From positions 35,517,356 through 35,581,355 of the forward strand of contig OX463815.1 in the NCBI GenBank assembly GCA_949825045.1: 64,000 nt of DNA. The letters are read 5' to 3'. Shown piece after piece: positions 9,375 through 51,800 of this stretch; position 1 is the first letter of the stretch, and each line of letters opens with the position of its first letter. Both the position numbers and the translations under genes were made by a program. The notes under the pieces are model-generated. The model was not told where the DNA came from, did not search any database, and worked only from the letters and a program-made list of their open reading frames with translations. The DNA is from Argyresthia goedartella. Lineage: Eukaryota; Arthropoda; Insecta; Lepidoptera; Argyresthiidae.

Positions 9375-12300
9375 GTACGTTCTCGCACCGCTATTCCTTC
9401 CTGCGTTTTTTCTTATTTACATTACATTTATCAGTAAAATCGCTCTAAAGAAGTAAATATCAGTTATTCTTGATTTCAGGTTTACTCCACGCAACCCCCA
9501 GGAAATTCTAGTACCCCGGATGCCGCCAAAAATGTCTTGGCAGCTGTCCTTGCTAATAAACCCCAAAAAGGGGTTAATCCATTCGGTAGGTTACATACCC
9601 TAGGGGATTTAGCGAAATTATCGAAAATTCTTTATCTGTTTCCAAACATAGGATTGATATATTGCAACCTCAACATTTGTTATATAATTTTGGCATTGAC
9701 CTTGTAAACTTTAAATGTTTTGGTCTAGAGATAACATGGGGTGATACCTGTGTGCATAGGTTGAGTATCAAAAACTTAATAATCAACAGATATCACTATA
9801 CCAAGACACGAGACAGAAATACATGAGTACTTACATGATCAAGCATGATGAAATGGAATTTGTTTTTGTGTACCGATGTGTAGATTTGTGTGAGCTGGCT
9901 GTAAAATGTCAAATTATAGCAATTTGAATTTTTACATCAATCAAACAAATATTCCTACAGTTACAGCTTATGTTGCGCTTGTTAATAGGCACAGTGAAAC
10001 AAAAGCTCAGCTATTGTATTTTTAGACCTTTCCTCATTTTACAAATAAGCAATTCTGAAACAGCCTACTTTACTAATTGTTACCTACATGTTTATTAGTA
10101 CAGCATGATTATTATCTTTGACTATAAAATTGAAAATTCCCTGATTTCTAAACCGGTATAGATATTGAATGGTTTTGTCTCTTCCCATGCGCCGCTACCC
10201 CCTCCAAGCGGCACTCGGGCGCCAAGAAACTTGGCAAGAAGTAGTTCATCATTCATACTGTCAATAATACCAACACTTTGAAAATTACTGAAATCTCTTG
10301 TTGTATTATTAACATGCAAGCCTTGAATCCAAATTATTGTCTATGATTCTTTTCACATTTACTTACTGCTAATACTTAAGTATGCTGCGGTTATCATAGA
10401 AAGATATCTGACAGTTTTAACAAAACAATGTTTATAAACTCATCCCTTATTCTTATCCCTAGGAAAGTCAGGGTGTTCTCATAAACTTCAACTGTCAGAT
10501 ATCTTCCTGTGATAACCACACTAAACTTACATAACTTTAAAAGTTTATGATAGTTTTAGTGCTATTTCATTGAATATCATATTGAAACCAAACATAAAAG
10601 CAGGATTTCAATTATGAACCAATCCAATCTCTTATCATTTTGGAATTGTTACAACCATATATGAAATTAGTTCATTTATTAGTTTTGTGTTACTTCCATA
10701 TTCTGTTTCCCTCCATTTTGTTGTTAATATGTATTGATACTTTTCATAACTGTTTGATTCTTGGTTGAATGCGGCTCTTTTTTCCCTCTCCCTGGCACAT
10801 AACTATGTTTTTGTCCGCTTTTCCCATCCCTGTCAGTTCCTAGAGTATCGTCCTTTGATCACCTCCTGATGAAACATTCCCCTTCCTAGGTATCCTCCAA
10901 AAGAGAAACTGCTTTCATCCAGGTGCCTCTGTTTTGTCTCGTGAAGATATGAACCTGCCTGATGCGAAGCCGGTCACCGGAAAGGATATGTTTAGAGGGA
11001 TGATGGAATATGTCTGGCCTAAGGTAAGATTATTTTGAGTTTTTATCTAGTTGTTGGTGTCAAGTGGTCAATATATTTTCAGGTTTAAAATCTTCATGTA
11101 TTATTTGAATTATTCTTCGTCCCGATAAAATGTAAAACTCAGTTATCAGCTTAAGTAAAATAGGCATAACTTATTCATAGTCTCATTTAGTATCTCGCTT
11201 CACTTTTAACTTCACATATTGTTATTTAATAAAAAAAACACCATCATCAAACATCATCAGATTGAACTAGAACATTCAATATAATACTTTTTCTAGTTTA
11301 ATTTCATGCACATTGCAATTTGTATTATGCACTTTCACATAACTCACTATATTTATGTTTAGAAATAGTTAAATCATTCCCATTAACTTCATAACCTTAG
11401 CCGACCCAAAGTCCACCCTCACATCTCTTTCAGGACAACCCAATGATCCGCAACCGCGTGATGCTGTCCCTCTCTCTCCTGTTCGCCGCCAAGATAGTGA
11501 ATGTATCCGTCCCGTTCCTCTTCAAGCATGCCGTGGACAATGTGAACGCGATGTCGGCGGCCCACGGCAATGAGCTGCTACTTGGCATGGAGACTGTACC
11601 GCAGGCGTTGGGAACTACTGCATTCAGTTTGTTGGTGGGCTGTGAGTGGGTTAATTTAATTACTAGCTGACCACACAGACAGTCTGTCAAAAGCTGTTAG
11701 ACTACCAACGCCATCTGTGGACAAAAGCATGAACTTATGCAATGATTTTTTGATTTGTGTTTGTGTCCTTTGTCTTTAAATTTTTTTTCTCCGTAAGAAC
11801 CTTCTTGAATTCTTACTTAAAACAAATAGTTTAAGAAAAGTTCACCCAAATCAGTCCAGTCGTTTGAGAGATTCTCGCTTACCAAGATTTACCATTATCT
11901 CACTCATTCCAGACGGTATCGTCCGCGCCACGTTGCAACATACTAGAGTATTTAAAGTATAATCCATTATCCCACTCATTCAACGTACTAGAGTATTTAA
12001 AGTATAATTCATTATCCCACTCATTCCAGAAGGTATCGCCGGCGCCACCTCGCAACATACTAGAGTATTTAAAGTATAATCCATTATCCCACTCATTCCA
12101 GACGGTATCACCCGTGCCACGTTGCAACATACTAGAGTATTTAAAGTATAATCCATTATCCCACTCCTTCCAGACGGTATCACCCGTGCCACGTTGCAAC
12201 ATACTAGAGTATTTAAAGTATAATCCATTATCCCACTCATTCCAGACGGTATCGCCCGCGCCACGTTGCAACATACTAGAGTATTTAAAGTATAATCCAT

Positions 12301-15300
12301 TATCTCACTACTTCCAGACGGTATCACCCGTGCCACGTTGCAACATACTAGAGTATTTAAAGTATAATCCATTATCCCACTCATTCCAGACGGTATCGCC
12401 CGCGCCACGTTATTAAGTATAAAGTATAAGTATAGTATTAAGTATAAAGCAACATACTAGAGTATTTAAAGTATAATCCACTATCCCACTCCTTCCAGAT
12501 GGTATCATCCGTGCCATCTTGCAACATACTAGAGTATTTAAAGTATAATCCATTATCCCACTCATTCCAGAAGGTAACGCCCTCGCCACGTTGCAACATA
12601 CTAGAGTATTTAAAGTATAATCCATTATCCCACTCCTTCGAGACGGTATCACCCGCGCCACGTTGCAACATACTAGAGTATTTAAAGTATAATCCATTAT
12701 CCCACTCCTTCCAGACGGTATCACCCGCGCCACGTTGCAACATACTAGAGTATTTAAAGTATAATCCATTATCCCACTCATTCCAGATGGTATCACCCGT
12801 GCCACGTTGCAGCATACTAGAATATTTAAAGTAAATTCCATTATCTCACTCATTCCAGACGGTATCGCCCGCGCCACCGCCGCCGGCTTCAACGAGCTAC
12901 GAAACGCCGTCTTCGCGAAAGTCGCTCAACATTCCATTAGAAGACTGGCTTGCAATGTGTTCACGCATTTACACAATTTGGACCTGAGCTTCCATTTGGG
13001 CAGACAAACTGGCGCACTGTCTAAGGTACAAGAGATAGACAGACGACTTGACAGCCGCTAATTACAGTTTCAACACGTCAAGTTACGTAGTCAAGCACTG
13101 CTAGCTCCTAGGTCATTGCCTGACTGCCAGGTTTCCACTTAACTTGTGTTTAAACTGCATTTACGGGTGCCGAAATTCTGGTGCAAGTCGGCTTTATTTA
13201 TTGTATTATCAATCAGGGTTAGCCATAGATAAAAAGAGGAAAAGAACCCCCCAAGTCTTAGATGTTTATATGTGTGTGACGTCGCTGTTTCTGGTTCTCA
13301 TATTAGGTTATCCTAGTGTGGGGCCAGACGCAATGTTTATGGCTGTACATAATGATTCCTCAGCCACCTTCAGTAAACTAAGAGGAGCCAGGTGCAAAAA
13401 TTAAGAACCCATTGAGAAGTTGCTAACTTTTTGCGCCTTAATTTTCACGAATTTACCAACTTCAATCATTTTCTTAATTCATTGCGGTCTAACAACTTAG
13501 GTTGATTTCGCCAATTTAGCGTGTTTTTATAGAATCCCACATATTTGGACAAGTTCTCTTTTTAGTATAGATTTGATGTTCATTAGAACTTCCCAGGGGG
13601 ACGGTGGGAACCAAGAGTTTCCTGCGGACATGAGCAACTATTCGCCCCAATAATGCAGCATTGTGTCATATTGTCGTTATATCCCCAATGTTATTTGACT
13701 AACGGTGTACAAAACTTCATGAGGAAATCTACATATCTCCTTAGCTGCGGCGATGGTCTAGCCCCCTGTCACGCAAAATGGATTATCGAATAATTGGCTA
13801 AACATGGATACATCTAGACCTCAATCACCCCGTGACAACCCAAGGGAGAGTCCCAGGTTCGAATCCCGGCTGGGGGGGGGAAGAAAACTTCGCTGTATTA
13901 CTTCGCTGTTCCTGTAGCCATATCATTTCAATCCAAAAAAATTACCAATAAGAACACGTTTATTTGACACTGCTGTCTTTTATTGCGACTTTTTCTTATA
14001 TAAGCCAAGTGCTGTAGCCACCATGTATTCCTTGACTTCGAGGGTTTTCTATTGCAATGCCAATCAGAACATGATTATTTGACACTGCTGTATTTTATTG
14101 TCTGAATGCCAATCAGAACATGATTATTTGACACTGCTGTCTTTTATTGTCTGAATGCCAATCAGAAAATGATTATGTGACACTGCTGTCTTTAATTGTC
14201 CAATCAGAACACGATTATTTAACACTGCTGTCTTTTATTGTCTGAATGCCAATCAGAACATGATTATTTGACACTGCTGTCTTTTATTGTCTGAATGCCA
14301 ATCAGAACATGATTATGTGACACTGCTGTCTTTTATTGTCTGAATGCCAATCAGAACATGATTATTGTGTCTTTTATTGTCTGAATGCCAATCAGAACAT
14401 GACTATGTGACACTGCTGTCTTTTATTGTCTGAATGCCAATCAGAACATGATTATTTGACAGTGCTGTCTTTTATAGTCTGAATGCCAATCAGAACATGA
14501 TTATTTGACAGTGCTGTCTTTTATTGTCTGAATGCCAATCAGAACATGATTATTTGACAGTGATGTCTTTTATTGTCTGAATGCCAATCAGAACATGATT
14601 ATTTGACAGTGCTGTCTTTTATTGTCTGAATGCCAATCAAAACATGACTATGTGACACTGCTGTCTTTTATTGTCTGAATGCCAATCAGAACATGATTAT
14701 ATGACAGTGCTGTCTTTTATAGTCTGAATGCCAATCAGAACATGATTATTTGACAGTGCTGTCTTTTATTGTCTGAATGCCAATCAGAACATGATTATTG
14801 TGTCTTTTATTGTCTGAATGCCAATCAGAACATGATTATTTGACAGTGCTGTCTTTTATTGTCTGAAAGCCAATCAGAACATGATTATGTGACACTGCTG
14901 TCTTTTATTGTCTGAATGCCAATCAGAATATGATTATTTGACAGTGCTGTCTTTTATTGTCTGAATGCCAATCAGAACATGATTATTTGACAGTGCTGTC
15001 TTTTATAGTCTGAATGCCAATCAGAACATGATTATTTGACAGTGCTGTCTTTTATTGTCTGAATGCCAATCAGAACATGATTATTGTGTCTTTTATTGTC
15101 TGAATGCCAATCAGAACATGATAATTTGACAGTGCTGTCTTTTATTGTCTGAAAGCCAATCAGAACATGATTATGTGACACTGCTGTCTTTTATTGTCTG
15201 AATGCCAATCAGAATATGATTATTTGACAGTGCTGTCTTTTATTGTCTGAATGCCAATCAGAACATGATTATTTGACACTGCTGTCTTTTATTGTCCGAA

Positions 15301-18300
15301 TGCCAATCAGAACATGATTATTTTGAATCTGTCTTTTGATGGGTCCATTTGTTAATTCTAAAGGTATTCTGATAGAAATTGCCAGAAGTCAGAATAGTAT
15401 GGTATGAATCAGAATGACGACCACTGTGGCGGTGCGGTTGTGGCTCTGCCTTCCATTCGAGAGGTCCCGGGTGCGATGCCCGGCTGGGGATAAAGAAAAT
15501 GTAAACCCCAGATCTTGGATGTTTATATGTGTGTGATGTCGCTGTTTGTGGTTCCCACGACACGCTATCCTACTGTGGGGCCAGAAGCAATGTATGTGCC
15601 TGTATATAAATGTTATGAGTTCATAATAAGCCCACTGGTTGGTAATGTTTTCAAACGGTATTGAAATTTCCAAACGTCAGAATTACATGATAAGTCTACT
15701 GGTTCCCATGATACAGAGTATCATAGTGAGGGGCCACCAACAATGTAAATTAATTTAATTTTGAAAAATATTTCGCAACATTTGCGAATTACTGAGCGTT
15801 TTTTAAAACAAATATTTGGTTTATTTCTTACTTGTCACTTAAGTTACAAAATTTTTTCTGCATTAAATTGCCAATGTAAATGGTTTATGTGTCTGTTGTA
15901 TATCTTCCACAGACAATAGACCGAGGCTCGCGCGCCATAAACTTCGTGCTGACAGCGATGGTATTCAACGTTGTGCCAACAATATTCGAGCTCGCATTAG
16001 TCTCCACCATATTGGGACTGAAGGGAGGCCTGGCGTTTACTGGTAAGAAATGTTGGAGCGGTAAACATTTATATACAAGCACACTTCTGGCCCCACACTA
16101 GGATACCCTGTGACGTGGGAACCAGAAACAGCTACGTCACAGTGGGATTTTTTTCATCCTCCCCTCCTGGATTTGAACCCGGAACCTAACGCAGAGCCTC
16201 GAACGGCAACACCGCAGACGTCGCCAGAATATGGCCTCTCGAGCATGGTAACATGGGGTTTATCTAGCTCAACACAGACCTTGGTGTTAATAATTTTGTA
16301 ATTATTTATTTCTGCTTATTTATTATTATAATTAATATTGCAATATTTGTATTAGTTAAGCGCAAACAATTTTTAAAAGAGATCTAAAAATCAATCTGTG
16401 GTAGTTTCTAAGCCCTTCTTCTCCCACAGTGGTCCAATGTAGAGAAGAGGCAAAAAATGACGTTTGCTAAGCATATGTAAATATCTACAGTAATAAAGTA
16501 CTTACGTAAGTAAGTACTTTATTACTTAAGTACTTAAAGTAAGTAAAGACTGACTTTGGTATGCAAAGTCTTCTAGGTGGACTAAAAAAGGCTGTTAAAA
16601 GTCTGCTCAAACTGTCCCAAACAACAGTGACCAAGATGCCATCATCAAATTGACGATCACTCTGACGTAGGGGTCGAGACTCTTCGTCACCAGCGACGGG
16701 TCCCGGGTTCGATACCCAGCCGTGCGTGGGGGACGAAGACAATCCCTGGCAGGTCTTGGATGTAAATGTTAGGATTTATTGTATTTCGAATCCCAGTTGG
16801 GGAAGAAGAACAAAATCCGCAGGTCTTGGATGTTTATATGTGTGTGACGTCGCAGTTTCTGGTTCCCACGACACAGGATACCCTAGTGTGGGGCCAGAAG
16901 CAATGCCAAGTTAGTGCGGAAGGGGTGTCGCTCCGCACACCTCCCGCCCTACCGCATAGGCCCTGTGATAGTATGCCTGTGATAAGTCTGTATTGACATA
17001 CATAATTAGTACATAATTTCTTTATTGATCAAAGGATATAAAAAAGAGTTACATTAAAATAGCGTACAAAGGCGAGCTTATCTCTAATAAGAGATCTCTT
17101 CCAGCAAAACAGGATGAGATCGTATTTTTTTTATCGATTTCGATCTTGCTAAAGTTGAAGCATGTACTTGTGTATTTAAAATGTCTGCCTCTTTGTCGAT
17201 ATGAAAAGGTAAAATACAATAATCCATTCTCAATCGCGAGACCTAGCTAGACAAGTACAGGAAAATTGTCACATTGAACGGAAAAAATATTTCGAAAAAC
17301 ATGTTCAGAAACTAAAGAAAAAGAGATGGAAGATTTTATCATAGAAGTCGGAGTAACCAGCGACGAACGCAGATTATTTAAGCGTTTCTTGCGAGGATAG
17401 TACCTATACTACTATAAGATATTTGATTTTGATTGTAATAAATAAAATATTAGTTAAAATAAAAGGGGATAATATTTACTCTTCATAGTGTCGCGTACCT
17501 TTTTAGGAAGTATGCTATATCAACATAGACTACCTCACTAAAAATGGCCACTAAACCTGATTTGGACAGTTGCGTGCCTATATATAATAACCGCCTTATT
17601 CATAAATGTCTAATAAACCTATTTTAACTATAATGCCGTTATAATTAGTTTGTCTTTGTCTGTCACTTTGAAATTTGTGTTTGTGAGAAAAGGACAAAGC
17701 ACATTTAAGCTATCATATGTTTTATAAGTTTTATGAATAAGGCGGTAAATGTTTAACAGTTTGTTTATATTTCCAGGGCTGGCGTTCAGCTGTGTCGCCA
17801 TATACGCGGCGTTCACACTGGCCATCACGCAGTGGCGAACCAGGTTTAGGGTCTACATGAACCGAGCCGAGAACGAGGCTGGGAACAAGGCTATCGACTC
17901 GCTTATTAACTACGAGACTGTGAAGGTACGAGAATATTAAGGAGGTGATAAATGTACTGGATTTAACAGAAAATAGTAGTTTATGTGACTGATACATAAT
18001 GCCTCAATATGTACAGTTACATACACTAGTTTATCTACACACATATCATAAGCTCTCTTTGATGTGTTCAGGAACTTCATGTTTGACCGGCATTGAACAA
18101 TTACTAACTTCACAGACAAAGTAGGTGCGGCACGCATGCGGGCGTCGGCGTTCGAAATTTGAATGTCATAATATGTAGAAAATATACACATTATGGTCAT
18201 AATGTTCAATATTCAGATAAGAAATGAGTTTTTACAAAGTAGTTTAACATTATGCTGATCGTAACGTGCGGTTTTTGGACGCAGTAAAGAGGGTTTATGA

Positions 18301-24300: not shown

Positions 24301-27300
24301 AACTTTTTGTTTCTTTTTACTTGTACACGAGTTAGCATTAATCTATATGAATAATCCAGATATGTTTTATAGAATGTCAAAGTTGACCCGATTGGTCAAA
24401 TTACGTGATTTAGGTTTGTATCGTACCTTGTGTTTAGCACATCAGCGCCATCTGCCACAGACCTTTGAAATTATACATTTTTTTCCAGTAAATCGACGAT
24501 GGTGCGTCTTCTATACCGGTTCTTTGAGCCGCAGTCAGGTCAGATCTTCGTCGCCGGACAGAATATCAGGGATCTCGACCTTGCTAGCTTGCGACGGTCC
24601 ATGGCTATCGTACCGCAGGTAACGTTACACCGAACTCAATTTGATGCTTGGTTGCATGACTTCGATGGACAGTCGGATATAAACATGAAACATAAACATA
24701 AATATTTATATATAGGCACATACACTAGCATACCCAGTGTCGTGAGCCTTTTTCGCTTCCGTCCCAGCTGGGATTCGAACCCGCGAAATACAAATACAAA
24801 TCATTTATCCATTAAATATTTTCAGTATCTAATAATACAAAAGGGCCCTGTACTAGATTCTAGAAAATTCACAATTCACAATTCTTTATTGCACAGAACA
24901 TTAAAACAAAACATTTTACAAGAAATTAAAAGGCAAAGGCGAGCTTATCTCTCAACAGAGATTTCTTACAGCAAAAATATCAGGATAGGATACATATAAA
25001 TCTGTTTTACAAGAGCCCCGCCATTCCCAATGTGATACAAAGTAATAAACAACGTTAAGTAGACTATGTAGAAAATAGCCGCTATTATTACAAAATATAA
25101 AAAATAAAAAATATCCAAATATTATTACAAAACATAATTTAGGGTATTAAAATAGGGGTAGTTATGTAGAGTGTGTGAAGTGAGTGTGGAGAGAAGATGT
25201 GAGTGTAGTGAGTGTCTTAAAGAGATGTAAAGTGAAGTGTAATGTGTGAAGGGAGGTGGGGAAAAGTCTTATCTACGTATGAACGTAATATGATATGAAA
25301 TCTCGCTTGGGAGACAGAGCCACTCCACAGAGATCTTCTTATCTACGTATGAACGTAATATGATATGAAATCTCGCTTGGGAGGCAGAGCCACTCCACAG
25401 AGATCTTCTTATCTACGTATGAACGTAATATGATATGAAATCTCGCTTGGGAGACAGAGCCACTCCACAGAGATCTTCTTATCTACGTATGAACGTAATA
25501 TGATATGAAATCTCGCTTGGGAGACAGAGCCACTCCACAGAGATCTTCTTATCTACGTATGAACGTAATATGATATGAAATCTCGCTTGGGAGGCAGAGC
25601 CACTCCACAGAGATCTTCTTATCTACGTATGAACGTAATATGATATGAAATCTCGCTTGGGAGACAGAGCCACTCCACAGAGATCTTCTTATCTACGTAT
25701 GAACGTAATATGATATGAAATCTCGCTTGGGAGACAGAGCCACTCCACAGAGATCTTCTTATCTACGTATGAACGTAATATGATATGAAATCTCGCTTGG
25801 GAGGCAGAGCCACTCCACAGAGATCTTCTTATCTACGTATGAACGTAATATGATATGAAATCTCGCTTGGGAGACAGAGCCACTCCACAGAGATCTTCTT
25901 ATCTACGTATGAACGTAATATGATATGAAATCTCGCTTGGGAGGCAGAGCCACTCCACAGAGATCTTCTTATCTACGTATGAACGTAATATGATATGAAA
26001 TCTCGCTTGGGAGGCAGAGCCACTCCACAGAGATCTTCTTATCTACGTATGAACGTAATATGATATGAAATCTCGCTTGGGAGGCAGAGCCACTCCACAG
26101 AGATCTTCTTATCTACGTATGAACGTAATATGATATGAAATCTCGCTTGGGAGGCAGAGCCACTCCACAGAGATCTTCTTATCTACGTATGAACGTAATA
26201 TGATATGAAATCTCGCTTGGGAGGCAGAGCCACTCCACAGAGATCTTCTTATCTACGTATGAACGTAATATGATATGAAATCTCGCTTGGGAGACAGAGC
26301 CACTCCACAGAGATCTTCTTATGGTCCATGATCCAGTCATGAAGTCATGACAAAACAATTTTTTTGTACGACTATCGATCAGGTTTGTCTTAAGGAAGAA
26401 TAAATGACTATTCCTATACTGTTTGATGTGGTAGTTGCAGAGGGTTGCACACTTGTTGAGCCAGTAAATTCAACACTGCTTGCGTTGCAGGTAGGCACTT
26501 TTGATTATCTCAAAGATATGAGATATCCCGACCGAAAAACTAACGTCCGCCTGCACACAAGGCAACTTTGAACGATTCACAAACGACTCGCTTTCGCTAC
26601 TGGTTGATTTCTGTTTCTTTGGGATTCGTTACCAATTCTTTGGGTACCCATTAGCAACCAGTTACCAATAGATTCATGTGCAGATAGGACTAACATGGGT
26701 GTGAATTATTCACGGTCGGAGATTAATTTCCAACTGGATTTTGGATGGATTTCAATTTTGACTGTATTTCTGGATTGAAACTAGATACTTAAGTTGTCTG
26801 AAGATGTTTCACGATAACCCAAAGAGCGATCCTTGCCCAAAACATACTACTTACCGCTTCACGGAAACCAGAAGCCGGCCATCTTTGCAAATATGACCAG
26901 CCAGACAGGTTACTGTCACTGAATTCTGGATGTTTGGGGCATACACTGTAATTACACTGCATTCCCTGTAGTCATTTAGAATTATAAATGAAGCGTGGGT
27001 TATTTATTCGCTAGAAGAATATTTGTTCACAACTCACTGATAGTCTTTTGTTTTTGACTGACTGCGCCCTCTAGCGGCGCTTTGCGTAAACACAACACAC
27101 GCCACGGTAAAGGGCTCATAATCACATCACATTACGAATGGCCGAGTCGGAAGTGACCCTGCCTACGAAGCCAAGGGTCCCGGGTTCGAGTCCCGGTGGG
27201 GGCAAATATTTGTTTAATGAGAACGGATGTTTGTACCCTAGTCATGGTTGTTGATCTATCTAAGTATAATATTTATCTATATAAGTATGTGTATCGTTGT

Positions 27301-30300: not shown

Positions 30301-33300
30301 TAAGCGTCTGATTTAACCAACCAACTGCGACAGCTCTACCAATCAGACGCCAGTGCTTTTCTTTCCCATCAACTCGTCTCGGCAAATAGAGTTTAGTTAT
30401 ATTGTCGCCGCGGTTACACCACCCAGGGGTACGCGACGCAGGTCGGCGAGCGGGGTCTCAAGCTGTCGGGCGGCGAGAAGCAGCGCGTCGCCATCGCGCG
30501 TGCCATACTCAAGAACTCGCCCATCATCATCTTCGACGAGGCCACCTCGAGTCTCGACTCGCTCACCGAGCACGTGAGTACACAACTCAACTCATTATAA
30601 AAAAAACAAATTAACCGACTGCATTTTATTTCGATACCACATACAAACTTATGAATGCAACTGTTACTTGTCTCTTAGCCCGTGAACCAGCTCTCACCTC
30701 TCTCTCGTCCATGAATGCGTTTCTCTTGCACCCATGCTGGAGCCGCATCAATTACTTTGTTGTCTGAAATCCAAACTAGTGACTTTTTACTAAAATTGTG
30801 TAGCCGTCCGTCAAGCCGTTTAGGCTGTAGCGAGTGCTAACAAAATGGAAGGAGATCTCTTATTAGAGACAAGCTCGTCTTTGTACAGATGTAGTGAATA
30901 ATTTCCTTATCGGCAAAACTCGGAACAACGATAACACCCGAATGGTGCCGATGTGTCTATGAATTACTGTATTATTAAATTACGTGTAGGTATCAAATAA
31001 ATCGCATACTTTATTTATCAATGTCAAATGTCAAATTGCCCGTTTGACGTATATTACACTGAGATGTTAAAACCACCACGATTCTATCATATAAAGAATT
31101 CGTTAGGTATACAAAAATATAACTAGTTACTGAGGACGTTTTATTTCAAAAAAAAACGCACTGATAAAAACCAAATTCCGGTTGGGATGATCTAATGATT
31201 CTATAAGGATTGGAACCCCAAAAGTCTAACTATAAGTCAAAACTACAGTAGGATTTTGCAGACCTTTTTTATAACAATAAATTTTTGTAATTAATTAAAA
31301 ATACTATGACATAACAAAAAAGACACCTCAACATAAACCAAAACAAACCAGCAGAGAAATTAATATAAATAAATATGATTTTCTGATTGTAGAACGACTT
31401 CGATTATGACAGCGGGATAAGAGGAGGAGGAGCGGGGTGGACAGTGTGATGCGAAACAATACTTCCAACTTCCATATCACAGTCAGAATCAGAACTATTT
31501 TCTGGTGTATCATCGTCAGAGTTTTCATGAACGGTGATTACAAAACTAGCCATATAATTTTCCAACTCAGGTTCGTGTTTTCGGTACTCGTTTTCGCATT
31601 TGATGGCGTGGTCACATACTTTGGCCCAAACATCGGAACCAATCATATTAACCTTTTCCTGTACCAATTGTTTCACAGTAGTCATATTCATACTGATGTT
31701 TCTTTTGGTTACGTATCCCTTTATTTGAGACCATATGTTTTCAATCGGATTGAAATCAGGATGATATGGTGGCAATCTTAGTACGCTGTGTCCATATTCG
31801 TTCATAAGTTTATCTATAGAGTATTCTACAAAGTCTTGTTTGTACTTGCAAATAATTTCATATACATATTTCAAGTTTTGTTAATGACGGATCAATCGGA
31901 ACGTTATGTTTGGATAGCCGATCAATCATGTCTTGCTTCCTGGTATTTGAATTAGGAGGTTTTTCTACGTACTTATTATGATATGCAGCATTATCTACTA
32001 CTAGTACCGAATGTGGAGCTAAGTTTGGAATGAGTTGATTACGAAGCCATTTTTCATAGTTTTCATTGTTCATCGCGTTGTGATAGTCACCTGTTTTATC
32101 AGTAGACTGATACATTAACAATGCCCCAGGTATAAACCCCTTTCTACTACCAGCGTGCACTATTATAAGACGTTGTCCTTTAGAAATTAACTGTTTCACT
32201 CCGTTTTCTGACGAGTCAGCCCAGCTTTTACCTGCCAAATGTGAGGTATGGATGTATGTTTCATCCATGTAAACAATCTCTCTCCCTTGCAATCTGTACT
32301 TTTTTATCGCGGCTAAAAACTTTACTCTTTTTAAACGAACATCATCTTTCTCGATAAGTAATTTTCTGTTGTTTTCAACTTTTTTATACCGAAATCCCAT
32401 TTTTCTAAGAATTTTTCTTAGCGTAAAGTCACATCCCTTAAAATGTATGGCTTCGGCTTAAAATGTATGGCTTGTTTGTATATCAAATGGAAATTATACA
32501 CTAATCGGCGTAAAACGTTGTAGTCAAAATCGTCAAGACCTAGACAAAATAATTTATTTGGTCTACCCAACTTTGCCGACTTCGGACTATTGGAGGTGGA
32601 TTGATTTATGTATTCTTTTTGCAATATTTTATTTACTGTTCGTTGAGAAATTCCACTGGCCTCCGAAACTCGTTTTTGGACTTTACAAAAGTAAGCAGTA
32701 TAGTTGGTATGTTTGAATTTATCATTTTCAGTTAAGAAATATAAATAAATATTGAAAATAACTTCGCAGGCTTGCCGATCTAAACGTTTCCCTTTTCTTA
32801 GTGCTTTCGGCATGTCTGTTATAAATTGTTAATGTGGATCGAATAAAATCAATGTTTATTATTTACAAAAATGACAGACAAGAGTGAAATGTAAAGTCAA
32901 AAAAAAAAATAGGTGGCCTGCATTAATACACGAGTCCATGAAGTTTATCACAAAATCTAACATAAATATCAACAAAATATTTCTGTGGTATTAACTACTC
33001 TATATAGATACTTCCTCTTGCAATGCGACCGTTCCCTACGTTGTCTCGATGGGTACTGAGTGCGAGTGAAGTAGTAAGACAAAAACGAACATTTCCGAGA
33101 AAATACGAAAGGAAAGGATTATTCACTACATCTGTACACTTTTTTCACGTAACTCTTATTTTTATATAATTTGTGTGCACTAATAATAATAATAATACCT
33201 TGGACCCTATTTACACACATTGATCTAGCCCCAAACTAGGATTCCCTGTATCTTGGGTACTAGACAACGATACACATACTTATATAGATAAATATTATAC

Positions 33301-36300
33301 TTAGATAGATAAACAACCATGACTTGGGTACAAACATCCGTTCTCATCAAACAAACATTTGCCCCCACCGGGACTCGAACCCGGGACCCTTGGCTTCGTA
33401 GGCAGGGTCACTGCCGACTCGGCCATTCGGGTCGTCAGAAGAAAGAAGAGATTATTACATTATATATGTCTTTGGCCATATCATAGAATGGATCTGGCCG
33501 ATTATTTCATGAAATGGTTGTTGGTGGTGAATTTGATGAAACATGTCTTTTTAAAAGCATTTTTGTTCAGTACTAACTAATGTTTTTTATGATTTACATG
33601 TCGAACTAACATGAATATTATTCGGGAGCTAACGCAGTGCTTTTCCCTAAAATATTTCTTCATTCAATGAAAGTTCTAATTCAACCATGGCTGGCCAAAT
33701 TAATGGTTACGACACATGCATATATAAAAAACCGTTCAAGTGCGAGTCTAACTCGCGCAAGAAAGGTTCCGTACCACCGTGCAATAGCAGGGATGGTGTG
33801 GAGTGAATAGTTTGGATTTTACATAGCAAAATGTTGTTTACGAAGTTATTGGTGCGGCTACTTTCACACTCCATGTACGTAACCAGGTGCATTCATAAGT
33901 TTGTATGTGGTATTGAAGGAATTGTTGAATGGGAGCCCTCTTAAATATTTATTTTATTTTGTTTTTTAGTATTTTTTGTAATAGCAGCAACTGAAATACA
34001 TCATCTGTGAAAATTTTATCTGTCTAACTATATGGTTCATGAGAAACAGGCTGGTGACAGACCGACGGACAGACGGACAGCGGAGGCTTAGTAATAGTGT
34101 CCCGTTTGGCACCCTTCGGGTACGGAACCCTAAAGAAGCACTTTCGCTCTCTTTCGTGAGAGTTATAGTATGTATATCATTATTATAATATATAAACTAT
34201 ATTTGCAGGTACATGTATGTATAGTTGTAGTCTGGTATATAAGTATTTTATTTTCCGTATTTTAAATTATATGTATTTTAGTATAGATTAGATATTAGAT
34301 ATTGCGCACTGCCTACCCTTTCATGATACATTTTGCATGGCTTGGTTAGCTGGAAGAAATCTCTTTTTAGAGATAAGCTCGCTTTTCTCCATATGCAACC
34401 TTTTAAATTTAATATGTGTGTCTGCAATCAATAATTATGAATATACACTCGAAAGTAATTCCTTTGGTCTTGTGCAGACGGGTGAAGATCAATATGTTAT
34501 TAGTTGTAGTTGTAGTATGTAGTATCGGCTTTGACCAGTTTCCCCTCAAGTGTAAATTATGTAAATAAATCGATCAAGTGCGAGTCGGATTCACGCACGA
34601 AGAGATCCGAACCATCGTACAAGAAAAGTTGCAAACAAAGACCTTTTTTTAAACTGCGTGTAGTTCATTACTTGTTGCTAAAGCGGCAACAGAAATACAT
34701 ATTCAGTGAAAATTTCAACGTGTTCACGACAATGAATACCAATTTTTTTGAATTTACCTGATGCAAAAAGCAAAAGCTTTCAAAACTATTAATTAGTGTC
34801 TAAAAAGTAAATTAGTTTATTTTTAAGGTGCCGTACACGAAGGGTGCCAAACGGGGCGCTATTACTAAGCCTCTGCTGTCCGTCTGTCTCTCTGTCTGTC
34901 CGTAAGCGGGCTGTATTTCATGAACGGTAATAGGTAGAGAGTTAACTTTTTAACATAATGTGTATATTCAAATGATGTCTCAATTATACAAGTGTTTAGT
35001 TTTAGTATCGTACCACTAGATGGCGTTGGTTGTACTCTGACTCGCGCTATCGTTTGGTTTTCATCATCATCATCATTGGCAGCTTTTTCCGCCCACTGCT
35101 GGGTATAAGCCTCCTCCAATTTGTGCCAACCTCTCCGGTCCTGTGCCAGACGAATCCAGGTATTCCCCGCGATGTTAGTAATATCGTCGACCCATCTGGC
35201 TGCCGGCCGACCCACGCTCCTTCTTCCTTCCTTTGGCCACCACTCGGTCAGGGATCTTCTCCACCTGCCATCACCTCGCCTCGCCAAGTGCCCTGCCCAC
35301 TTAAACTTGAGTCTAGTGATACGTTTTACGACATCTTAGACTTTCGTCCGTTGACGTATCTCGACGTTTCGGACTCGATCTAGAAGTGTGATGTCTAGCA
35401 TGGAACGCTCCATGGCTCTTTGGGCTACTCTCATTCGTTTCACCGTTTCCTTTGTGAGCGTCCATGTTTCGGCACCGTACGTCATGGTAGGCAGGACACA
35501 TTGGTCGAATAGTTTGGTTTTCAGGCATTGCGGCATCTTTCGATCCCTGAATATTCTCTCGAGTTTCTTGAATGCCGCCCATCCAAGTTGGACTCTCCTG
35601 GAGACCTCCTTCGCCTGGTGCTCTCTACCAAAAGATAGAATGTGTCCAAGATAGACATAATGATCAACCACCTCTAGCGTCTCATATCCGACAGTGATGT
35701 TGGACAATGAGCTGTCAGAGATGTTTGTCATAACCTTAGTCTTGGACATATTCATCTTCAGGCCAACTTTAAGAGAAGCACTATAAAGATCTTGAAGCAT
35801 GCTTTGGAGGTCGCCAGGTTTGTCGGCGAACAGGATTATATCGTCGGCGAAGCGGAGGTGCGTCAGGAATGCACCATTGATGTTTATGCCTTGCTGGTCC
35901 CATGTAAGCGTCTTTACTATGTCTTCTAAGACAGCTGTAAAGAGCTTAGGTGATATGGTGTCTCCCTGGCGCACCCCTCGTTCGATGCTAATGCGGTTCG
36001 TCAGCTTGTGAATCCGCACTTGCATCGTTGCCGACTTGTAAAGCTCCCGGAGGACATCCACGTATCGGGCGTCGATCTGGCAACGATGGAGTGCATGGAA
36101 GACCGCCCAGTGTTCGACACTGTCGAAAGCCTTCTCATAATCGATGAAGGCGAAACACAGGGGTCGATTCCATTCCTGTGATTTCTCCAACAGCTGCTTC
36201 ACAGTGTGGATATGATCGATAGTGGAGTATTCGCTCCGGAAGCCTGCCTGTTCGATGGGTTGGCATTCGTCGAGTTGGCGGGTGATCCTATTGCACAGCA

Positions 36301-39300
36301 CTTTGGTAAAAATCTTGTAGATCTGCAGGAGGAGGCTTATCGGGCGATAGTTTCCCAGTTTGGTTATATCCCCTTTCTTGTGCAGTATGGTCACTACCGC
36401 ATTATTCCAGGGTTCGGGTGAAACTCCGCCATGAAGTACCTTATTGAAGAGTTCTACAAGGACCTCAAGTACATGGTCACCACCGGCTATCAGAAGCTCA
36501 ACCGTTACACCTTCTTCGCCGGGAGATTTATCCTTTTTCATTTGCCTCATGGCCCATTCTATTTCAGAGTGTAGAATGGGAGGCAGGATTTGCTCACTTC
36601 GGCATTCGGTTGGGCTGGCTCTGGGGTCGCCGTCTGTGGTGACCGGCTCCGTTGCACTAGATCTGTACAGTTCCGTGTAGAACTCTTCAACTATGGCCTC
36701 TATGCCTTCTCTGTGCGTCACTGTAGATCCGTTCTTGTCTGTTAATTTAATAATTTCTGAATTCCCCGTTTTAGTTCGTATTTTAAATACTTTAGGTCCC
36801 CTATTTTATTTTATTGTACGCTGTATTGTTTCAGTGTTGTGTGTCCTAATATATTTTCTGATAGCCTTTTGAATTTGTTTATTTAATAAATTTAAGTTTT
36901 GATGGTCTCTGACAGTGATCTGACGCATATCTCTTCTCTTTTCCAACAGTGCAGTAGTTTCTGGTGTTAACTTTTGGTGTTTGGTCTTGACTCCGCCCAG
37001 GTGTTTTTAAGTTGTCTCTAGTAAGGACTTGCACAACTTTGCGTTTAGGTTGTCGACGTCCAGATTCAACTATTTCAGTCCTTCGAATGCGTTCTTCAAG
37101 TCCAGTTGGAACTATTTCTGCAGGTGTCTCACATCTTCAAGCATATATCGATTCTGTGACTGAACTAGCTTGCTTCTTTCCTTACTTAAGTTGAATCTAA
37201 ACGTCGCTCTAACTAAACGATGGTCACTTCCTGCCTTAAAGTGACTGAGGACAGTAACGTTGCTAACTATGTTCTTTTGTGAGCTTATTACATAGTCGAC
37301 CTCATTTTTGGTCTTACCGCCGGGGCTTACCCAGGTCCATATCAGTTAATAATATTTCCTAAGTGTTTATTAATCAGGAGTTAACAAGAGTTTAAATACA
37401 GTGCAGTAAGTTCAAGTGAAGTGTTTTACTATCCAGGGTATTTCTGTCGATGAAAGGGGGGCCCCATGCAAGAGACGTATATTATCTATTATTCCTGCCC
37501 TTGCGAATTACTAAAGCAACATTATTCAAATATCACACAAATTTCGCGGTACACATCGACGTTGTCGGTGACGTCGGTTAGTTTGACGTCGCATCAGCAA
37601 ACTTTAGGGACTGGTATCGAAACCAAGTTGAAACCTAGTTTTTAGGATTCCGTACCCGAAGGGTGTTAATCGGGACCCCTATTAACCCCTCATTTTCACA
37701 GAATGTATTTATTTTTATTTTTATTTATTCAGAAAACCAACAGCGTTACAGTTTAATTCTCTTAATTAAATTACTTATTTACTGCAGCCAATTATAGGTT
37801 TCCATAAATTACTTTATTCAAGACTCCTTAAATTATGGGGTTAGTAAAATAGATAGGTTATTTATTCGGAACTATGTTTTGTGTATTATTGAGAGGGGGT
37901 TGGTGTGAATGCAATGTGAGTATGTGTGTATGTGAAGGGTGGTGTTTAGCTATGATTGAAACTGTATTGTTATATTTTGTTATCCGCAGAGAGTGTCAAG
38001 AATTTTATGTTTAAAAATACTTTTGGAATGATGGTATACGTCAATGTCGGAGAAAGTTTTATTGTAGGTTCTAGCTATTCGAGTGAGGACAGAATTGTTG
38101 GCGTAATTGGTACGATGTGCCGGATGGTGGAATAGTTAGTTAGCTGTATGTCTAGTGCGGCGGCGCGGCGTGCGCAGCGGCAGCTGGCTCACTAGCGCGG
38201 GGCAGTCCACGTGTGCGTGCGCCAAGTCGTACAGCAGAGACATGTCGGCGAGTGTGCGGCGCGCCGTAAGACTCGGTATCCTGTGTCGCGAGCAGCTCTC
38301 CTCATAGCCATCGATATATGCGTTGCTCTTATAGGTAAGGTGTTTGAGGAATTTGGATTGAATTTTTTCAAGATTTTGCTGGTGTGTGATGTAGTATATT
38401 CAAGATGTGTATATTCAAGTATACTACGTGCATATGCGAAGAACACCTTTTTTATGCAAGATATATCCCTAAAAGGTTGGCAGGCGCGTAGTACAAACCC
38501 TAAGTTTTTGTAGGCTTTCCTGGTGATGATATCTACATTGTCGTTCATATTTAATTGGTGATCCAGGTATACGCCAAGATCACGCACTTGTTGAACACGT
38601 TCAATACGCTGATCCTGGATTGTGTATGAGAAGTGCAAGGGACTGGTTTTCCGTGAAAAGGATATTAATTGGCATTTCATGGTATTAACTTTAATTCTAT
38701 TAGTGATGTAGTATTTTGATAATGTGTTTAGGTCATTTTGTAGGTAAGCACAGTCCGTCGGTCCCTTGATATCCATAAATATTTTTGTATCGTCTGCGTA
38801 CATAAGAAAGGACGCACTACTAAAACAGGTGTAAATGTCGTATAGATAAGAGTTGTACAAGAGGGGCCCCAAGTGGGATCCTTGTGGGACTCCAGATGAT
38901 ATATCCACGAAGTTTGATCTGAACCCACCAACCACAACCGCCTGTGACCTTTTGGTGAGGTATGATTGTATCCAGCGCAGTAGGTCCCCGTGAATTCCTA
39001 GGTGTTCCAATTTGCGCAGCAGGATGGTGTGATCCACACGATCAAAGGCCTTTTCGAAGTCAGTGTAGATCACATCAACCTGCCGACGTTTTTCCATTGA
39101 ATTAAGGCAGAAGTTCGTGAACAGAGCGAGATTCGTGGTAGTAGACCGGCCTCGGAGGAAGCCGTGCTGTTCGGCGGGTATTCCTTTTGATAAACAAAGA
39201 TAGAAAGTGTCGTATACTCATTTTTCTAATATTTTGGCAAATATATTCAGGATAGATATGGGCCGGTAGTTTGCGACCTTTAATTTAGAGTTCTTTTTGT

Positions 39301-42334: not shown

Positions 42335-44380
42335 TAATAATAATATCAACTCATATACAAACACGTAAACACCAACCAGTTACTAGCTGAACAACAAAAA
42401 GGATGCCGCAAATTCAGTCAGGGATGCAAGGAGCAACTTATCATCGATGCGGTCGCATCTAAACAAGCTCTTCGCAAAAAAAGAAACATTAACACTATGT
42501 TTATTGACTATAAGAAGGCCTTTGACTTTGTACCGCACACATGGCTTATCTACGTATTACAACACTATAAAGTTCACCCCACTATCATCTCATATCTATC
42601 AACAACCATGCAGACCTGGAACACTATTCTTAAGTTATACAATGATAACAATACAATACAGACTGACAAAATCATCATTCGCAGAGGAATCTTCCAGGGC
42701 GATTCACTGAGTCCCCTCTGGTTTTGCCTGGCACTCAATCCACTATCAAATCTACTCAATAACACAAAAAAAGGATTCCAAATAAAGTTTGATGTGTCAT
42801 CACACCACACATTGTCACATTTACTATATATGGACGATATAAAACTTTATGGAAGTAACTTAACAGAAATACATAAACTTGCAGATCTAACACAACAGTT
42901 TTCTAATGACATACAGATGGAGTTCGGTATTCCGAACTATAAGTGTAACGATAAGTGCAAAATACAATCAGTTCATAGAGGAAAAGTTGAGAGCAATACA
43001 TACATATTAGAGAACGGAGATCAAATAGATCCAGTGGATAACGAGATAGGATATAAATACTTAGGTTACTATCAAACGCAACAGATACATCAAAGGGAGA
43101 CAAAAAAAACAATCATACAGAAGTTTAGGAAACGGATACATAGCATACTTAAAACACAGTTGAACGCTCGAAATACCGTCAAAGCATTAAACACATACGC
43201 CATCCCAATCCTCACATATTCATTCGGTATAATCAACTGGTCCCAATCAGACTTAATAAAACACCAACGCACCATCAACACACTTATGACTAAATACAGA
43301 AAACACCATCCACGCTCTTGCATACAAAGACTCACACTACCTAAAATTGAAGGAGGAAGGGGAATAATAGACTTAAAAAATTTACACAACAAACAAATCA
43401 CCACACTAAGAAGGTTCTTTCACGCTAAATCATCGCACTCAACCCTGCACAATGCCGTCGCTCAGTCCGACTTTAAACATACTCCACTTAACCTACAAGA
43501 CCATCAAGCTCAGATAAATGAAACTATCATCAAACCGCAACAGAAAATCGACATCTGGACACGAAAATCCCTCCACGGCAGACACCGCTTAGACTTAGCC
43601 AACCCTAACGTCGACAAAACTGCGTCGAACGCGTGGCTTAAGAAAGGCGAGCTGTTCCCGGAAACGGAGGTATTTATGTTAGCCATACAGGACCAGGTTA
43701 TAGATACTCGTAACTACAGAAAACATATCATACACGACCGCACAATGGCAAGCGACATGTGCAGACAGTGCCAAAATAGTTCAGAAACAATACAGCATAT
43801 CACAGGAGCCTGCAGATCACTCGCACAATCAGATTATAAACATCGCCACGACCAAGTTGCAGCCATCATACACCAACACCTCGCATTCAGATACAAATTG
43901 ATTGCAAATAAAACAGTCTACTATAAATACACCTCAAACAGTTTTAGAATCAACAGACTTTAAACTCTACTGGGACAGAACTATGATTACAGACAAAACT
44001 ATTCATTTCAACAGGCCTGACATAACTCTCCACGATAAACAAAACAAAACAGTATTTCTCATAGATATAGCCATACCAAATACACACAACCTTACCACAA
44101 CGTTTACAGAAAAAAACACAAAATACACAGACCTTGCCATTGAAATTAGAACACAATGGCACAGGAGTCATCCCATACACATTACACACTAGTCTCAAAA
44201 CATTAAATATACCCAGATCCACACACATACTTCTTCAAAAAGCAACAATACTAAATACATGTAGAATTGTACGGAAATTCATGGGCAAGGACCGTGATCT
44301 TTAGTAGATAAGCACTTGGCGTAAGCCCGTGTATCAGAACCTCTTTATTACAAGAGTGAAATGAAAATTTCATAAAAATA
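42335..44380 (+). mobile_element. R4/Dong-like LINE with restriction-like endonuclease, 5'-truncated
   Basis: Open frame from about 42344 (LLAEQQKGCRKFSQGCKEQL) through FIDYKKAFDFVPHTWLIYVL, RRGIFQGDSLSPLWFCLAL, the catalytic box LLYMDDIKLYG and YKYLGYYQTQQIHQRETKK to the CCHC knuckle MCRQCQNSSETIQHITGAC. A frameshift near 43930 moves the endonuclease to the frame of 43902..44192, where RPDITLHDKQ and FLIDIAIPNTHN match the PD..D nuclease core. The end LLQKATILNTCRIVRKFMGK (about 44235..44290) is the characteristic C-terminus. An (AAT)n tract ends the element. The RT and zinc knuckle are otherwise uninterrupted, so the copy is young. Confidence 0.9.
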
Positions 44381-48803: not shown

Positions 48804-51800
48804 GTAAGTTTTTAGGCTCACCTTTAGAAAATTATCATTTAGTGTGGACTTTCGCGGTTTTTTGGCGGATTTTTCGGAGTTCATTCTAAGCTCTATCCAG
48901 AAAGTTTCAAGTTGTGGAATTCAATAGGTTAACAGATATAATTTTTTGAAAATCTGTAAAATATATTCAATGGCACCTGTGCCGGCGTTTTCTCCCGCTT
49001 GGTGGCGCTGGCGTAGTTGAAGGAAGAGTTCCTTAGCTGAGGTTAGGTTCAAAACATGTCACGTGATCTTTCAAGACTTCACACTGGCAAAATTAACCTC
49101 AATGAGGTTAGGATGCCATCCAACTAATGCTATAAATCTGAAAGTAGCGATGTTTGGATGTTTGTATGTTTGTGCCTCAATCACGCTAAAACGGCTAAAC
49201 GGATTGAAACAAAATTTTGCACAGAGATAGTTTATGAGCTAGAATAACATATAGGATACTTTTTATCCGACTGAACCAGAAGGAGGGTAACGTTATCTTG
49301 GTAAATGATACTTCCTAGAAACACGCAGATGAAGTTGCGGGCATCAGCTAGAATATTATAAGGAGTACAGATCCACAAACTTATCTGTGGGTGGGTGGGG
49401 CGGGCGGCGTAAGCTAATCTCATTCGTAAGACGCTAGCGACGATGCCGTCACCGGGTCAGATAAGTTGTGGATCTATAAATAGAATTGGACTTTGACAGA
49501 TAGACAGCTTCCAAGACCCCAGCGCCATCTGCAATAAGCTTTTCTGATTAGCTTCCATTGTAGTAACGAAACGCCAAAATAACCCCAAAATGAGCTACGT
49601 GCACTTATTTGTAAGTTGAGAATTTATAGCGGCAATCTCAGATGATATCGATTTATTTTGAATAAAACCTATTTTGGTAATATTTTTACGTCAAATGAAT
49701 TGTTTTTGGATTTGAGCGAATTTGATGAAATTTCACATTTACATAATGAGAGCTGAGATTTATTTTTGAGTAACAGAACGTAGCCTTCATGACGTAGGCT
49801 GGCGGCCATGATAATTGTTTACATTTAAGATTGCAAGCGGTTCAAACGAATCAGTCTGGTAACTAGGTATGGTTGAATAGAATATAAGGTACCTGCGTGT
49901 AGTAAGGGCCACAGTCTATTAAGGGTCACTCTCAGAAAAACACACTCTCAAACGTTTTACATGTTTCAACTCACGCACACTTAGAAAGGACCAATAGCAA
50001 CGCTAATCTTATAGGGCACGTAGCCCACGGGCCGCTATCTTGTCAGTTGCCACGCATTCATCGCGAGCGTTAGACGAGCGTTACCGTGTTACTATTATTT
50101 TTTTGTGAAAATATAGAAATATTGTCAAAAATACGCTGTTTTCTGTGTTTTTCAACATAAAACAATAAATTTAAGTTAATAGTGTTGTCTAATCAAGGTA
50201 AGTTTTGACTTTTCATTAATAAATAAAGACATTTTTAAAGAGTCTCGCATGATTCGTTGCAAAGCCTAATAAGGGCCACATTCGTGGCGGGTCAATGGGC
50301 CGGCTCTTATTAAACATATGAAAATATTACTTTCCAATCACACTAAGATAATTAATTGCTTAAAATACCTGTTTTTTTTTTCTTTTTCATTTGGTTTAGG
50401 CGTTTGGGAGACAAGATATATTTCATTTCTTTTTATCATTTCTTTGTTGAAAGTTAAAAAAGTCAAGTATTAAAGTTTCCAAAAAAAGGGTCAGAATTCG
50501 TGAATCTCTAATTATGTTTTGCTTGCTTGATATCTTTTGCAAAAGCTTATTTTGCTTGTACAGGATCATGGAACCACCTCCTAAGAAGAAACGAGGTTCG
50601 TGGACACTGAAACAACTAGAAGATGCTATGACTGCCGTCCGGGGAGGAATGTCACAACGTGCAGCAGCCGCGCGTTATTCTATTCCCAGAAAAACTTTAG
50701 TCAATCATTTGAAAAGTGGCAAAGTCGAAAAACAAATTGGGCGTCGTACAATTTTAACAAAAGAGCAAGAGACTGATTTTGCCACGCGAATAAAAAGACT
50801 TGCTGCTGTAGGCTTACCGTTAAAACCAAAATCAATTCGACACCAAGCTTACGTTTTTTGTGACGAAAATGACATTCCAAACAAATTTAATCGCTCCAAA
50901 AAACGAGCAGGAAAGGATTGGTTAAAATTGTATTTGAAGCGAAACTCCGATATATCAAAGCGAAAGGTACAGATCTTAAATACAGGAAGGGCTCAGAAAG
51001 TTAATAAACCAATCGTAAATCAGCACTTTAGCGAATATAAAAAATATACGAAGAACTGATTAGAGAGAGCCCCGGACGTCTATATAATATGGATGAAAAA
51101 GGTTGTAGGTTAACCATACATAATCAACCTGTGGTCTTAGCAGAAAAAGGGGCTAAAAATGTGCCCTTGGTTGCACCAGAGCACGCAGAAAACGTAACTA
51201 TTGCCATGTGCGTAAATGCAGTAGGCACTGCTATCCCGCCGATGATACTGTTTAAGGGGAAGAGAATGAAGCCAGAATTCAATGATAATTTGCCATCTGG
51301 ATCAATGGTACGAATGGCAAAAAAAGGGTCCATGACAACGTCTCTGTTCACAGAATTCATCCATCACTTGGGAAAGTACAAAACTCCCGGCAAGTGTTTA
51401 ATTGTTTTTGATCGCGCTTCTTGCCACTTAGATTATAGTATTGTAGACGCAGCGGAGAAAGAAAATATAGTTTTATACTGTTTGCCATCCAACACCACTC
51501 ACTGGCTCCAGCCACTTGACAGAAGTGTCAACAAATCATTTGAGGTTTACTGGGATGAAGAAGCTTTATCATATCTGTACCAATACCCCGGCAGAACAAT
51601 TACCAAAGCCAGATTCAATTCCATCTTAAGCAAAATATGGTCTAAATGTATGACCCATTCCAATATTGTCAACGGGTTTAAAGCTACCGGGCTTTATCCT
51701 TTTGACCCAAATGCCATTCCAGATGAAGCCTATCAACCGTCAATACCGACCAATCACCCGATGCAAGAAAACCAGGTCGGAGAACTAGACCAGTCGCAAG

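Follow-up and report, generated by a model that had tools for sequence, protein, structure and literature searches.

A 72-bp minisatellite repeats the exon 5 splice acceptor of ABCB7 in the moth Argyresthia goedartella

The nearest described precedent for the locus reported here is a variable number tandem repeat (VNTR) in intron 18 of human ABCA7, in which each 25-bp unit starts with a splice donor (PMC5954066). In that VNTR the exon-adjacent (first) GT is the canonical one, retention of one unit amounts to ~2%, and use of another copy leads to a stop; the VNTR ranges from about 12 to 427 units and skipping of exon 19 rises with its length (PMC5954066). Internal tandem repeats at the exon-intron boundaries of human duplicated genes, which can alter splicing, are described in a second paper (PMC2812944). 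How competing sites are chosen is addressed in a third, whose data come from outside this insect: where the introns on either side are long, pairing takes place between the sites nearest each other across the exon, and for identical 5' sites in minigenes this is the exclusive outcome; competing 3' sites in general show an upstream preference that long introns reduce and do not reverse (PMC9225289).

Among open-licence papers we found no earlier report of an acceptor array comparable to the present one. Duplicated splice sites were reportedly studied experimentally by Lang and Spritz in 1983 and by Reed and Maniatis in 1986, and a 2007 paper is said to describe human introns that arose from tandem arrays.

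The window analyzed is a 64,000-nucleotide stretch of the Argyresthia goedartella assembly GCA_949825045.1 (contig OX463815.1, positions 35,517,356 to 35,581,355, forward strand). It holds a complete ABCB7 gene model of 15 coding exons, extending from 9219 to 40996 and encoding a protein of 725 residues. A protein search of the genome (1.109 Gb in 89 contigs) revealed one full ABCB7 exon set, with other ABC transporters appearing as weaker matches. The top homologues among the matches listed were from Manduca, Mythimna and Maniola, with whole-length identities of up to ~80%. When exon 4 is joined to the last acceptor, human ABCB7 chains from the PDB align without a gap through the exon 4-5 junction. 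The same spacing is found in 118 of the best 120 homologues of a longer list, these being all that contain both anchors. One of the two remaining homologues (P0091) has AYG instead of GYG at the anchor, and the Choristoneura fumiferana ABCB7 model (P0040, a predicted protein) has a 78-residue non-repetitive insert at the junction.

Table 1. Features of the ABCB7 exon 4-5 region and of the related ABCB6-like cluster (window positions unless a contig is given)
Feature	Position	Strand	Remarks
ABCB7 exon 4	11434..11641	+	Ends GGCT/GTGAGTGGG; gene model, alignment to human ABCB7
Old dispersed repeat in intron 4, upstream of array	11661..11885	+	39 other places in the genome, 70-89% identity
Junction-spanning array	11892..12877	+	72-bp units at the intron 4/exon 5 border, 13 acceptors
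First decoy AG	11911..11912	+	Two strict yUnAy (CTTAC at -31, TTTAC at -21), the only such acceptor in the array; stop after 16 codons
Acceptor AG last bases, upstream copies 1-7	11912, 12029, 12101, 12173, 12245, 12317, 12389	+	
Acceptor AG last bases, remaining copies	12498, 12570, 12642, 12714, 12786, 12858 (real)	+	
Insert in one linker	12412..12448	+	37 bp; spacing of 109 = 72 + 37; linker resumes at 12449
Decoy acceptor with donor-like AAG/GTAACG	12569..12576	+	Donor score 8.8, against 4.7-11.4 for 14 real donors
Penultimate acceptor	12785..12786	+	In frame and stop-free into exon 5; +24 residues predicted
Real acceptor of exon 5	12857..12858	+	Human alignment, gene model, homologue spacing
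ABCB7 exon 5	12859..13025	+	167 nt; flanking introns of 1217 and 2887 nt; gene model
ABCB6-like cluster (L029, L040, L042)	contig C6, 18.92-19.27 Mb		Three paralogues with 120-bp donor arrays

Directly upstream of exon 5 lies a minisatellite whose units cross the exon-intron border, each 72-bp unit joining the final 53 nt of intron 4, AG included, to the opening 19 nt of exon 5. An earlier note on this DNA, made from its letters alone, had described a duplicated exon 5 acceptor spanning 11901 to 12858, with a 72-bp unit that contains the 3' splice site and 19 nt of exon, and about a dozen near-copies. The array is present and slightly wider than described, the 19 exonic nucleotides recur at each AG copy, and there are 13 AGs, of which the real acceptor is the last and the 12 upstream of it are hereafter called decoys. 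Their spacing is 72 bp with two exceptions (117 and 109). The 117-bp gap, from 11912 to 12029, consists of 72 bp and a shortened unit of 45 bp, from which 27 bp, the AG among them, are missing. The units are arranged as core (linker core)n, with 13 linker copies and no recognizable full linker ahead of the first core. The first and last units share TCTCACTCATTCCAG, as the note had pointed out; TCTCAC also occurs in the unit of 12317. A chance repeat was ruled out by the Tandem Repeats Finder (TRF) scores, which run from 704 to 1611 in the long-period rows.

Frames were read from exon 4 into each of the 12 upstream acceptors. It had been claimed that all of them lead to the same in-frame TAA about 16 codons on. 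This holds for eight, which reach the common TAA after 16 codons, but not for the other four: two encounter a stop at the junction itself, where a change of ACGG to AAGG gives T/AA, one stops after 23 codons inside the 37-bp insert, and the path from 12786 stays open because the last linker has GTAAATTCC in place of GTATAATCC. An AG at 12831, within the last linker, also has an open frame and falls outside the 25 best-scoring AGs.

The array appears to be confined to this locus. A search of the 1.1-Gb genome with the array DNA, which skips very common words, returned four matches, all at the array, and the 12 genome-wide matches to the linker with at most 3 mismatches all lie inside it. An exact 35-nt piece had no match in viral contigs. 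A transposon-derived unit was rejected, as neither unit nor linker was found at other loci. The dispersed repeat of ~225 nt that precedes the array ends 6 nt ahead of the first unit; 15 of its 39 other copies end exactly at 11885 and none extends past 11890. Together the array (967 nt) and this repeat leave only ~25 nt of the 1217-nt intron 4. The first linker is missing either because the repeat insertion removed it or because the array started from a duplication with filler. Two further tandem repeats lie in introns of the gene and reach no exon, a 49-bp repeat of 26.5 copies in intron 5 (window 14056-15323) and a 70-bp repeat of 15.1 copies in intron 12 (window 25267-26322), the latter probably young given its 99% match. 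The window also contains long open frames that by eye resemble transposases or reverse transcriptases (31404-32828, 35336-36805 and 38192-40339 on the minus strand; 42344-43963 and 50451-52747 on the plus strand).

The 12 copies after the first differ from one another at 0-12 of 69 nt, one pair being identical, and the most divergent units by pairwise distance are the outer ones. The suggestion that the array grew between two early copies fits these distances but is not proven by them. Near-identical units, private changes and the position of the most divergent copies at the edges fit growth by slippage or unequal exchange, which is the likely route. Among 10 of the 13 copies (the first two and the real one were excluded), 5 of 50 columns vary in the intron part versus 7 of 19 in the exon part (p 0.014). 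Since 14 of the 22 exon-part differences between decoys and real exon (11892-12858) are CpG transitions, several of them shared by descent, we draw no conclusion on selection on the units.

To compare acceptor strength we used a rough model built on the 13 other ABCB7 acceptors. By this model the real site scores 5.9 and the decoys 3.4-9.6, and the other 13 acceptors range from 0.1 to 11.4 when each is left out in turn; four decoys score higher than the real site, one ties and seven score lower. The idea that the last acceptor is the stronger is unsupported by this 13-acceptor model. Strict yUnAy branch-site matches at -14 to -45 from the AG were found for 10 of the 13 other ABCB7 acceptors versus two of the 13 array acceptors, namely the first two, and none was found in that interval for the real exon 5 acceptor. 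A better branch site at the real acceptor is thus also rejected, the trend running the opposite way. Hiding of the decoys by RNA structure was rejected as well (z 0.37, one 261-nt stretch folded). Nothing that could be scored in the repeated part favors the last copy. Private to that copy are the remainder of exon 5 and its donor, so if the last copy wins, the decider must lie beyond the shared 72 bp.

We propose that the array is a single-locus minisatellite, likely grown by slippage or unequal exchange, whose 12 predicted decoys are mostly outcompeted by the last copy through exon definition, and we consider this reading probable. Exon 5, through its body and 5' splice site, would pair with the nearest upstream acceptor, which is the last copy. 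As the decoys score like the real site, we infer that exon definition favors the copy joined to exon 5. The pairing across long-intron exons described in PMC9225289 likewise suggests that the last copy wins mostly, with some leak; exon 5, between introns of 1217 and 2887 nt, offers such a setting. Also counted for the last copy is the junction itself, which lacks an insert in all 118 both-anchor homologues (from the best 120 of a longer list) and in human ABCB7, and so is the ABCA7 VNTR, with its canonical donor next to the exon and its ~2% retention of one unit (PMC5954066). Counted against it are the first decoy, whose use would leave the shortest intron (271 nt) and which offers two strict yUnAy matches to the real site's none, and the upstream preference of 3' sites reported in PMC9225289. 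The decoys would be unused or used at low frequency. Use of any of 11 among the 12 would bring in a stop after 0 to 23 codons, with nonsense-mediated decay as the probable outcome; use of the penultimate site would yield in-frame ABCB7 with 24 extra residues.

The leak could in principle be substantial. The note had set two alternatives side by side, a last site that wins and a share of transcripts routed to decay, and these are the relevant ones. A sizeable share of transcripts might enter upstream acceptors, meet a stop and be degraded, with the number of units setting the dose of ABCB7. This would agree with the stop downstream of 11 of the 12 upstream acceptors, with decoy scores that resemble the real site's, with the better branch-site match at the first decoy, and with the general upstream preference of 3' sites described in PMC9225289. 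ABCB7 is nevertheless conserved and complete here, which requires that the last site be used in most transcripts or that lost expression be compensated, and we regard such a valve as rather unlikely. A second product, in which the penultimate acceptor yields an ABCB7 isoform with 24 extra residues, could account for 12786 alone staying open among the 12 decoys of the array, the stop having been lost in the last linker only. Yet none of the 118 both-anchor homologues (from the best 120 of a longer list) has residues at this position, which in the human ABCB7 alignment falls within a conserved stretch, and one open unit in 12 can arise by chance, edge units being the most divergent; we hold this isoform to be improbable.

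Two other readings receive still less weight next to competition won by the last copy through exon definition. Splicing might proceed sequentially, stepping recursively through the units, a possibility raised by CAGAAG/GTAACG at 12573, where the donor-like sequence directly follows an acceptor and scores 8.8, and by a weaker analogue at 12032 (4.5). However, AGAAG/GT occurs in only two of the 12 decoys, each time owing to a single-base change of the same type and in one case with a good score, and at 1217 nt intron 4 is short. The pattern of an acceptor followed directly by a good donor is not a property of the array, the support for stepping is thin, and we consider it the least probable of the readings. 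A poison cassette exon is similarly not indicated: array GTs other than 12573 have donor scores of at most 5.0, and those of the stop-containing linkers score below real donors. That the array is an assembly artefact deserves mention since it is known from a single assembly and tandem repeats are prone to misassembly. Against this, the units differ, a private deletion and a private insert occur among them, and the same genome contains other junction-spanning arrays, which makes an artefact very unlikely.

Repeats of this kind recur in predicted ABCB7 proteins of other Lepidoptera. Repeated 12-residue words were found in five of the best 120 ABCB7 homologues of a longer list, all lepidopteran predicted proteins. 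By this count five of 57 named lepidopteran species have predicted ABCB7 proteins with tandem exon repeats, and four of these read on past the exon end. In isoform X2 of Maniola jurtina the end of exon 4 is present five times, separated by four linkers (LLVG/CEYSDR), and the Phthorimaea operculella model contains LLIGCE 20 times. These two predicted proteins are compatible with read-through of a T/GTGAG donor like that of exon 4 in the window. Also among the predicted proteins, Vanessa cardui has the end of exon 14 five times and reads beyond it, isoform X2 of Manduca sexta shows exons 9-10 in triplicate, the exon end being followed by the linker VTT, and Mythimna separata has four full copies and one partial copy of the exon 7 tail with no linker residues. 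Some public ABCB7 protein models seem to run through repeated exon ends, by which automatic annotation has apparently been distorted.

Junction-crossing arrays are also found elsewhere in the A. goedartella genome. Among 23 genome stretches (220 kb) we identified six arrays with five or more units of 20 bp or longer, three of which overlap one of the 33 listed exon matches. All three fall on one and the same exon, in three paralogous members of a tandem gene cluster on contig C6 matching ABCB6 of Lepidoptera. The cluster comprises eight places with open frames of 220-778 codons among the matches listed. The 120-bp units carry the exon end followed by GTGAGT in 9, 14 and 17 copies, with the GT kept in 9/9, 13/14 and 15/17. 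The arrays are mostly free of stops: from the first donor onward the open frame runs through 335 codons in L029 and through 669 in L042, and in L040 it continues past the end of the stretch. The three stretches beside the window (L045-L047) contain no listed exon. On contig C31, near an ABC-transporter match, lies a 72-bp array of 22 copies (L034:1265-2861) with an unrelated unit, which overlaps no listed exon.

Repeated 12-residue words were absent from the best 120 homologues of both ABCB6 and CCT1, each taken from a longer list; six ABCB6 homologues had repeated 8-mers at offset 2 only, which we took as low complexity. None of the other listed species thus shows the ABCB6 arrays, and the excess in ABCB7 is no more than suggestive. 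With species counted by listed names, nameless rows left out and length limits that differ among the ABCB7, CCT1 and ABCB6 searches, 5/57 for ABCB7 does not differ significantly from 0/36 for CCT1 (Fisher p 0.15). Pooling CCT1 with ABCB6 (0/35 species) gives p 0.016, a post hoc value from related species with isoforms and 90% clusters mixed. We tentatively raise the possibility, which we consider unlikely at present, that lepidopteran genomes repeatedly grow splice-junction minisatellites with ABCB7 as a hotspot. Arrays would have arisen independently at the exon 5 acceptor here and at the exon 4 donor in Maniola and Phthorimaea; three other species would have gained theirs at exons 7, 9-10 and 14. 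Each array would act as an inherited dial, set by its copy number, for how much of an iron-sulfur transporter is made. The recurrence in ABCB7 together with the ABCB6 arrays suggests that the contribution of junction-crossing tandem repeats to variation in gene structure has been overlooked in these insects.

This recurrence is new and the most interesting side of the finding. The ABCB7 array itself represents a natural, thirteen-fold counterpart of experiments on spliceosome choice between equal sites, set in a conserved gene where a wrong choice of acceptor is predicted mostly to ruin the message. With the duplicated-site experiments it shares near-identical sites competing in cis; it differs in being natural, thirteen-fold and known here from sequence alone. 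NAGNAG acceptors similarly place alternative acceptors in a row, but they lie 3 nt apart, whereas the ABCB7 copies are 72 nt apart, each with its own pyrimidine tract, and CAGAAG occurs only in the AAGG units 12029 and 12570. The repeats described in PMC2812944 are likewise minisatellites across exon-intron boundaries; those belong to recently duplicated genes and have new introns inside the repeats, whereas ABCB7 has one full exon set and implies no new intron. The closest likeness is to the ABCA7 VNTR (PMC5954066), which also places a minisatellite at the edge of an exon in an ABC transporter gene. The ABCA7 units repeat the donor, those of ABCB7 the acceptor together with 19 nt of exon, and copy-number variation and exon skipping are known for ABCA7, whereas the ABCB7 array is known from the sequence of one assembly. 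The ABCB7 unit carries no donor of the ABCA7 type, while the ABCB6 arrays of the same genome do.
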